Origin: Haloarcula sp. CBA1129 | GTDB lineage: Archaea > Halobacteriota > Halobacteria > Halobacteriales > Haloarculaceae | Length of the DNA: 64,000 nt | Direction of reading: 5' to 3' | NCBI RefSeq assembly: GCF_008729015.1 | Contig: NZ_RKSM01000001.1 | Location: 3,224,001 to 3,288,000, forward strand | Shown here: in pieces, positions 46,551 through 49,018 of the stretch | How positions within the stretch are numbered: position 1 is the stretch's first letter | How the letters are laid out: every line of letters starts with the position of its first letter | Notes under the pieces: generated by a model | The model's database searches: none | What the model was told of the DNA's origin: nothing | Seen by the model: only the letters and a program-made list of their open reading frames with translations | Made by a program: the position numbers and the translations under genes

Positions 46551-46631
46551 CGCCGACGAACGACTGGTATACACTCCATTCTTCCTGTTAGCTTGTGAGT
46601 AAATATGAGTGCCCAGCGTGTCCAGTGTCAT

Positions 46632-47003
46632 ATGTCCACAGAGGGACAGGAGTACGTTATCGCGCCGTGGGGGGAGAGCGAGTGTGAGACGACGGATGTC
46701 ATGGTCGACCTGCCGTCCCGAGAGCTTGCGGCTCAGCTGGAAGTCCCGACAAGCGTGCTAGACCGCATGGCACAGCTCAGCGACGAGCACGACATCTCGG
46801 TCACGCAGGCGCTCGGGGAGCGACTGGAAATCAACCGAGCGCGGGTGTCGCTCTGTGCCGCGAAATCGGTCGACGACGTGGCTGCCGTCCAGCAGCACCT
46901 CACCGACGCCCGCGAGTACCTGTCCGGTGTCGAGACGCTCGATACGACCGACCTCGAAGCCGACATCGAACACCTCTGGACCAACGAACTCGGCAGCGCG
47001 TAA
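46632..47003 (+). CDS. Haloarchaeal protein of unknown function
   Basis: Soluble acidic protein of 123 residues with no signal or membrane segment. The N-terminal third contains beta strands with two cysteines flanking S-E-C-E-T-T. The rest is helical (S-V-L-D-R-M-A-Q-L-S-D-E-H-D-I and A-V-Q-Q-H-L-T-D-A-R-E-Y-L). The segment around A-A-Q-L-E-V-P-T-S-V looks like a ribbon-helix-helix or dimerising helix, but this is tentative. taaatatg (46600-46607) lies 25 to 32 bases before the ATG at 46632. An in-frame ATG at 46605 is possible. No family recognised; next gene is 254 bases away, with the TATA-like ctttataaaa near 47139 in that spacer. Confidence 0.55.
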   Translation: MSTEGQEYVIAPWGESECETTDVMVDLPSRELAAQLEVPTSVLDRMAQLSDEHDISVTQALGERLEINRARVSLCAAKSVDDVAAVQQHLTDAREYLSGVETLDTTDLEADIEHLWTNELGSA

Positions 47004-47257: not shown

Positions 47258-49018
47258 ATGAACGATGATAGACGACTGTGGTTCGTAGCTGCAGTGTCGC
47301 TACTCCTGATATTCAGCGGGAGCGGACTTGCATGGACAGTACAAACAGACGCCGGTTCCGTCGAGGTTCGCGACGTGACATTCTCTGGGACCAACGGGAC
47401 GATGATGAGCGGGACGTTGTACATCCCTGAGGAGGCGAGCAGCGCTTCGCCACAGCCGGGGGTGTTGGCCGTCCACGGGTATATCAATTCGAAGGAGACG
47501 CAGTCGCCGTTCGCCATCGAGTACGCGAGACGGGGCTTCGTCGTCTTGGCAATCGACCAGACGGGCCACGGCTACTCGGATCCGCCGGCGTTCAAGAACG
47601 GCTACGGCGGCCCCGACAGTCTCGAATACCTTCGGTCACTGGACTACGTCGACAACGAAAACATCGGCCTTGAGGGGCACTCGATGGGCGGTTGGACCGT
47701 CGTCACGGCGGCCGCGGCCCACCCGGACGGGTACGAATCGATGGTCATCGAGGGCTCTTCGACGGGATCGAACCGCGCTCCCGAAGGCACTGAGTCGTTC
47801 CCACGGAATCTCGCCGTCGTGTTCAGCGAGTACGACGAGTTCTCCCCGCTGATGTGGGGGACGGCGAGTGCGTCCGATGTCGAGCAGAGCGAAAAGCTTC
47901 AGACGGTGTTCGGCACGGACAGCGCCGTCGAGGGGGAGCGCACCTACGGCAGCGTTGAGGATGGGACCGCACGGCGGCTGTACACGCCGGCAACGACCCA
48001 CCCCGGCGACCACTTCTCGACCGCAGCCATCGGCGCGTCAATCGAATGGCTCCAGCTAACGCTTGAGGGCGAGGACGAGATGGACCCCAGCAATCAGGTC
48101 TGGTACTGGAAATCGATGGGGACGTTTATCGCCCTTATCGGTGGGGTGCTGTCGCTGTTCCCGGCGGGCGGGCTGCTCATCGAGCGAACATCGACAGACA
48201 GGCTTCGCCGGGAGTACCCCGAAGGGAAGGGAATGACCGGCGGCAAGCGGTACGCGGCGTCGCTACTCGCCGCTGCCATTCCGATTGTGACCTACTTCCC
48301 GCTGCAGGACGCTGCACCGGCGATTATCGGCCTCAGCTGGCTGTTCCCACAGCAGATTAACAACGGTGTCATCGTCTGGGCACTGGGGAACGCGGTCATC
48401 ACCGCGGTCCTGTTCGCAGTGTGGCATTACACGAGTAATGCGGACGACCCGTCGGTGTCGCTTGCGAACTACGGCCTCGATACGGGCGACGGCGCGCGGA
48501 CGGTCGGCGTCTCGATTCTGGCCGGCGTCGCTACCGTTGCCGTGCTGTACCTGCTAGAAGCCGTCGTGGCGTTCCTGTTCCAGACGGACTTCCGCATCTG
48601 GGTGTTCGCGATCAAGCTTCTGTCGCCGGCACAGTTCCGCATCGGCCTCTCGTATCTCCTGCCGCTGTTTGCCTTCTTCGTCGTCCTCGGCGCGCTCCTG
48701 CACGGCCAGCTCCGTCCAGAAGGCGAGTCCCGGTCGCTCCGCCGTGCGATGGCGACGAACTGGCTTCTCGTCGTTGGCGGATTCGTCGTGCTGCTGGCGG
48801 TTCAGTACATCCCGCTGTTGACCGGCCAGCCGCTCCCGCTTGGCCACCCGCTGTTGACGATCTTGGCGCTGCAGTTCGTCGCCCTGCTCAGTATCGTGGC
48901 CTTCGTTAGCACCTACTTCTTCAGAAAGACGGGTCGTGTCTGGGTCGGCGCGACAATCAACGCTGTCCTCGTGACGTGGGTCATCGTCGCCGGGACGGCG
49001 ACGCAGTTCCCAGTTTAG
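47258..49018 (+). CDS. Alpha/beta hydrolase fused to a polytopic membrane domain
   Basis: Unusual two-part protein of 586 residues. An N-terminal helix (about 8-27) anchors an alpha/beta-hydrolase domain on the outer side (about 35-270) with nucleophile Ser142 in G-H-S-M-G-G. The domain also has the H-G-Y oxyanion segment and T-H-P-G-D-H-F supplying the probable catalytic His. From about residue 290 to the end there are roughly nine hydrophobic helices. The hydrolase resembles dienelactone-hydrolase or peptidase S9-like esterases. The membrane half matches nothing I can name. It might cleave a lipid or act as a signalling or transport unit. No partner gene lies in the same orientation. Confidence 0.78.
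   Translation: MNDDRRLWFVAAVSLLLIFSGSGLAWTVQTDAGSVEVRDVTFSGTNGTMMSGTLYIPEEASSASPQPGVLAVHGYINSKETQSPFAIEYARRGFVVLAIDQTGHGYSDPPAFKNGYGGPDSLEYLRSLDYVDNENIGLEGHSMGGWTVVTAAAAHPDGYESMVIEGSSTGSNRAPEGTESFPRNLAVVFSEYDEFSPLMWGTASASDVEQSEKLQTVFGTDSAVEGERTYGSVEDGTARRLYTPATTHPGDHFSTAAIGASIEWLQLTLEGEDEMDPSNQVWYWKSMGTFIALIGGVLSLFPAGGLLIERTSTDRLRREYPEGKGMTGGKRYAASLLAAAIPIVTYFPLQDAAPAIIGLSWLFPQQINNGVIVWALGNAVITAVLFAVWHYTSNADDPSVSLANYGLDTGDGARTVGVSILAGVATVAVLYLLEAVVAFLFQTDFRIWVFAIKLLSPAQFRIGLSYLLPLFAFFVVLGALLHGQLRPEGESRSLRRAMATNWLLVVGGFVVLLAVQYIPLLTGQPLPLGHPLLTILALQFVALLSIVAFVSTYFFRKTGRVWVGATINAVLVTWVIVAGTATQFPV

Follow-up and report, generated by a model that had tools for sequence, protein, structure and literature searches.

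In glutamic intramembrane proteases of the CPBP type, such as Rce1 (PF02517; PDB 4CAD), catalysis is associated with the motifs EExxxR, FxxxH and HxxxN. A few CPBP folds are known or proposed to work as non-catalytic scaffolds, namely SpdC, LnsB and APH-1. In Staphylococcus aureus the SagB-SpdC (LyrA) peptidoglycan release complex (PDB 6U0O) consists of an external, membrane-associated hydrolase and a CPBP fold without protease residues, and SpdC orients and scaffolds the glycosidase SagB for the cleavage of glycan strands (PMC10581084; PMC12272431). LnsB with LnsA, and APH-1 with presenilin, have likewise been discussed as non-catalytic CPBP folds (PMC7387801), APH-1 being a CPBP relative (PMC6588880). 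Here we describe a gene from the haloarchaeon Haloarcula sp. CBA1129 that encodes an alpha/beta hydrolase and a polytopic membrane half in one chain. The gene lies in a stretch of 64,000 nucleotides that was analysed as a whole and is called the window below; its features are collected in Table 1. As far as a homologue's model shows, the protein looks like SagB and SpdC joined into a single chain, with SagB-SpdC as the best structural match to the membrane half. There are clear differences: SagB-SpdC is built from two chains and its enzyme is a glucosaminidase, whereas the fusion is one chain with an alpha/beta serine hydrolase, and the identity between SpdC and the membrane half is 9% in the aligned part. 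The LnsA-LnsB system for lipoprotein N-acylation is similar in that an enzyme is combined with a CPBP-like membrane protein lacking the catalytic motifs (PMC7387801), but it differs from the fusion in having two genes, an NlpC/P60 enzyme and acyl transfer as its reaction.

Table 1. Features of the fusion gene, with positions counted in the window and conservation counted over 56 distinct aligned members
Feature	Position	Strand	Basis
Whole gene, 586 aa plus stop	47258..49018	+	ORF exact at these coordinates
N-terminal membrane anchor, ~residues 9-29	47282..47344	+	Helix in full-length model; conserved hydrophobic stretch
Alpha/beta hydrolase domain, ~residues 30-270	47345..48067	+	Pfam PF00561 and others; PDB sequence matches; Foldseek matches
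Codon of nucleophile Ser142 (GHSMG)	47681..47683	+	Invariant, 56/56
Codon of acid Asp193	47834..47836	+	D 51/56, E 5/56
Codon of His248	47999..48001	+	Invariant, 56/56
Membrane helix preceding the CPBP-like core, ~residues 288-308	48119..48181	+	Helix 12-38 of homologue model, outside the SpdC/Rce1-aligned region
Predicted degenerate CPBP-like core, seven helices, ~residues 329-580	48242..48997	+	VIA-align of homologue model residues 58-315: Z 10.3 with 6u0o_A, 9.7 with 4cad_I
External loop with the strongest membrane-half motif, FQTDFRIW, residues 441-448	48578..48601	+	D444 51/56, R446 53/56, W448 50/56
Codon of Asn568, expected place of second CPBP histidine	48959..48961	+	Last-helix profile alignment; not significant alone

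An earlier note, made from the sequence of the window, had described a fusion of a hydrolase and membrane helices at this place, and an intact gene of this kind is borne out by the open reading frame, by a genome search that finds the gene in single copy in the 4.05 Mb host genome, and by relatives over the full length (95-97% identity in other Haloarcula, 51-64% in other Halobacteriales). In the hydrolase part, Pfam Abhydrolase_1 (PF00561) matches residues 69-176 with an E value of 4.7e-13 (49.8 bits against a cut-off of 25.8). The nearest PDB sequences are esterases and other hydrolases, with PET46 (8b4u) first, and Foldseek gives PET46 and acetyl xylan esterases for this part, the same class as the sequence search. 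The note had also pointed to a triad-like set of Ser142 and a late histidine. This histidine is His248, and the acid, which had been left unnamed, is Asp193, so that a serine, an acid and a histidine follow each other in the order of a triad, with a GxSxG elbow. The set is conserved across the members, as the counts in Table 1 show, and it is retained despite an identity of only ~15-25% between the membrane halves of different groups. Judged by profile score and triad, the domain is a member of the alpha/beta hydrolase superfamily, and the fusion protein carries an apparently active external enzyme. Alpha/beta hydrolases of the acetyl xylan esterase or PET46 type have the fold and the triad in common with residues ~30-270 but, unlike the window protein, come without a membrane half.

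The fusion is conserved well beyond this genus. Matches to the membrane half were found in 37 of 292 sampled genomes of the haloarchaeal class (~13%, with E values up to 1e-3); one of them (G199) is short and has an internal stop. Outside the archaea the fusion was first seen in gut Clostridia and in one Treponema, and the bacterial samples gave matches in 10 of 291 genomes for the class of Hungatella, 22 of 299 for Lachnospiraceae and 11 of 198 for the class of Treponema (some partial). No relatives were found on viral contigs. The hydrolase precedes the membrane half in the same frame in 87 of 90 distinct cases; two of the three exceptions (L214, L220) are apparently cut by the end of the sequence and the third (L190) has a broken frame, so that none of the 90 is an intact membrane half without the hydrolase and the fusion appears obligate. 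The earlier note had sensed that such a fusion is unusual, and rightly; it is conserved in haloarchaea, Clostridia and Spirochaetia. A quick rather than careful tree groups all haloarchaeal members together (SH-aLRT 98). Their clade adjoins a bacterial member of the spirochaete class (L217) and falls inside the bacterial diversity under midpoint rooting, the root being for drawing only. This fits a single transfer from bacteria to haloarchaea followed by losses. One genome has, in addition, a degraded further copy of the hydrolase part that is interrupted by a stop codon (G076:C1:1766681-1767189).

The membrane half has eight helices in the homologue model, which together with the N-terminal anchor makes nine in total and agrees with the "about nine" of the earlier note. 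Its orientation can be read from the charges of the loops. Averaged over the members, the loops of the C-terminal half contain 4.0, 2.0, 3.1 and 2.4 lysines plus arginines where they are placed inside and 1.2, 0.4, 2.0, 0.3 and 0 where they are placed outside. Because of these counts, the hydrolase and the FxxDxRxW loop are placed on the outer face of the membrane, outside the cytoplasm, in keeping with the earlier view of a hydrolase held outside the membrane on an N-terminal anchor. Seven positions keep to one polar or aromatic class in at least 95% of members, namely K285, W374, R446, K453, Y466, Y517 and T558, and in this charge-derived topology six of the seven are at the outer side.

That the membrane half had no recognisable family was stated from the start, and profile searches give the same picture, with no family match in Pfam, NCBIfam or the PDB sequences. 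The cut-off of PF02517 is not reached (the best member has an E value of 1.5), and with the CPBP HMM the family members score below 5 bits, against 7.2 for the top reversed-sequence control. Alignment to a narrow CPBP profile gave a P value of 0.14, against 0.22 for the reversed control. With richer profiles in local mode the C-terminal helices align with CPBP motif 3, in the same place, at P 0.0064, where reversed controls give 0.1-0.19; this alignment is suggestive only. Inspected by eye, the last helices are laid out as in CPBP, with an LGL-type motif and helix and then an external loop. The helix end LLHGQLR stands where CPBP has EELLFRG, the AVQY helix stands where it has FxxxH, with another helix after it, and at the last motif FFRKTGRVWVGATINA stands where CPBP has YERTGNLLVPVVAHG. 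In the profile alignment of the last helices, which is non-significant alone, Asn568 is found opposite or next to the histidine of the HxxxN motif. The catalytic motifs EExxxR, FxxxH and HxxxN are absent, and there is no conserved glutamate or histidine anywhere in the membrane half; its only strongly conserved acid is D444 in the external loop. The host genome also encodes five ordinary CPBP genes.

A degenerate CPBP layout, with SpdC as the analogue, had been predicted from these motifs before any usable model of the membrane part existed. The model was made with AlphaFold from the membrane half of a Treponema homologue and 13 relatives (14 sequences), the homologue sharing ~25% identity with the window protein over this part, and it reached a pLDDT of 78.8 and a pTM of 0.80. 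A full-length model from 13 sequences was poor (pLDDT 54.7). With Foldseek alone, nothing matched the membrane model significantly (best E 0.12), and the glycerol facilitator and aquaporins in its top rows were discarded at TM-scores of ~0.15-0.2. When VIA-align was run over Foldseek's best 1000 chains, rank 1 went to 6u0o_A from SagB-SpdC (Z 10.3, 211 aligned, rmsd 4.6) and rank 2 to 4cad_I from Rce1 (Z 9.7, 202 aligned, rmsd 4.7), where a Z near 10 is middling and values below ~13 can arise by chance for helical bundles. The next match is an unrelated fold with Z 5.6, and APH-1 is found lower in the list with Z 4.6. We read the membrane half as a predicted CPBP fold that has an additional helix at its N-terminal end and has lost the catalytic residues. 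Compared with Rce1 and other CPBP proteases, the predicted core fold and the layout of the C-terminal helices are alike, but the three motifs are theirs and not those of the fusion, and no Pfam match lies above the cut-off. The earlier note had held that its proposal of an undescribed function would fall if the membrane half turned out to be a known family. By the model it would belong to the CPBP fold superfamily; on the side of sequence it is a degenerate outlier under every threshold, and the fusion itself stays undescribed in the literature searched.

Two other readings of the membrane half have to be weighed here. It might be an unrelated bundle of eight helices in which the match to CPBP is a chance arrangement, and the Foldseek E values above 0.1, the sequence profiles that are non-significant alone, and a Z in the range that helical bundles can reach by chance speak for this. 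What makes this unlikely in our view is that the best two of the 1000 chains are both CPBP, well ahead of the rest, as predicted beforehand. It might also still be a protease or an esterase with another catalytic set, which would turn the protein into a fusion of two enzymes. There is a precedent in DidK, a CPBP homologue that is an esterase (PMC10811503), but DidK retains the CPBP catalytic residues and the fusion family has no conserved glutamate or histidine in this half, and we regard a second enzyme as very improbable.

Taking the membrane half as a degenerate CPBP fold, the protein is probably a single-chain extracytoplasmic ester hydrolase, kept in position on the membrane surface by a scaffold of the pseudo-CPBP type, rather than a transporter or a sensor. 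Since non-catalytic CPBP folds act with partner enzymes, a hydrolase on the outer surface would here be held by such a scaffold with the partner in the same chain. The N-terminal helix and the C-terminal pseudo-CPBP domain would together hold the serine hydrolase at the cytoplasmic membrane, on its outer face. The F-x-x-D-x-R-x-W loop and the conserved outer helix ends may contact the hydrolase or border its entrance, and the active site would thus face an ester substrate that lies in the outer leaflet or is fed along it. The recurrence of the fusion in gut bacteria and spirochaetes suggests that the dead protease part keeps the enzyme at the membrane surface. The scaffolding itself, the specificity for esters and a lipid-like or membrane-associated substrate are what we infer beyond the gene and the model. 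The earlier note had suggested that the membrane half moves a product or senses a cleaved compound. This is not favoured by the predicted fold, which is that of CPBP, where non-catalytic members act or are proposed as scaffolds. As for transporters, the folds of bile-acid transporters reach a Z of only ~5 with VIA-align, and Pfam and NCBIfam give no family match for the half.

No description of such a hydrolase-CPBP fusion was found in the searched literature, which is no proof that there is none. We give about even chances to the proposal that this is a family undescribed in that literature, whose members combine a serine hydrolase for good with a non-catalytic CPBP fold that positions the enzyme at the outer leaflet, in archaea as well as bacteria; this would be the principle of SagB-SpdC applied to a different enzyme. 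If this is true, pseudo-CPBP domains would be a general scaffold for surface hydrolases and not a staphylococcal peculiarity. A conserved fusion in one chain would leave no doubt about the partner of the scaffold, and it would offer a simple system of one polypeptide for testing how another enzyme is guided by the fold of a dead intramembrane protease. The CPBP reading would also provide the fold of a membrane domain not covered by Pfam and NCBIfam.

Gene neighbourhoods bring in two further explanations of the function. In a Treponema (L008:1367-7851) the fusion gene is the last of an operon with gldA, dhaKL and an alkaline phosphatase gene, in a member of Lachnospiraceae (L014:1272-5999) it follows gldA and dhaKL with a gene for a PocR/AraC-type regulator adjoining, and in the case of a divergent member (L148) a gene for glycerate kinase lies right next to it. 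These loci would suit nutrient scavenging, in which the hydrolase would release glycerol or other small products from (phospho)glycerides outside the cell, with the membrane half aiding the product or lipid in crossing or leaving the membrane. Glycerol genes occur in only 2 of 39 bacterial loci and glycerate kinase in 1 of 39, however, and in haloarchaea the neighbours are variable and unrelated. To our knowledge CPBP folds are not known as transporters, and scavenging is in our judgement not a likely role; as a general one, drawn from the two operons, it failed to hold across the 39 bacterial loci and was set aside. The other explanation is the turnover of membrane lipids or isoprenoid esters within the envelope of the cell itself, where the pseudo-CPBP domain would bind the lipid. 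For this speaks one haloarchaeal family (f3), where all five genomes with the main form that were sampled for neighbours (L171, L174, L175, L177, L179) have a geranylgeranyl-reductase-family gene that follows the fusion gene immediately and in the same orientation, with a gene for a 2Fe-2S ferredoxin upstream and divergent, and also one bacterial locus (L150) with upstream genes for a CrtI-like flavoprotein and an FAD/2Fe-2S reductase. The flavoprotein scores 251.8 bits, against an NCBIfam cut-off of 580 for the lipid reductase itself, and the neighbourhood is absent in the other haloarchaea examined, the window included, which leaves lipid turnover a rather doubtful explanation. The surface hydrolase with a pseudo-CPBP scaffold is the reading we prefer.

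Outside the f3 family the haloarchaeal loci have no common partner gene. In the window the fusion gene stands alone, as the earlier note had remarked in finding no obvious partner: upstream are a glyoxalase-family gene and a hypothetical protein of ~130 residues, and downstream, on the opposite strand, is a nitric oxide reductase-like gene. In 8 of the 39 bacterial loci (L007, L012, L147, L229, L232, L244, L245 and L247) a gene for a MarR-type regulator is directly adjacent, in differing orientations. A small acidic protein without a Pfam match is encoded upstream of the fusion gene in the window (46629-47000), and another Haloarcula (L181) has it at the corresponding place.
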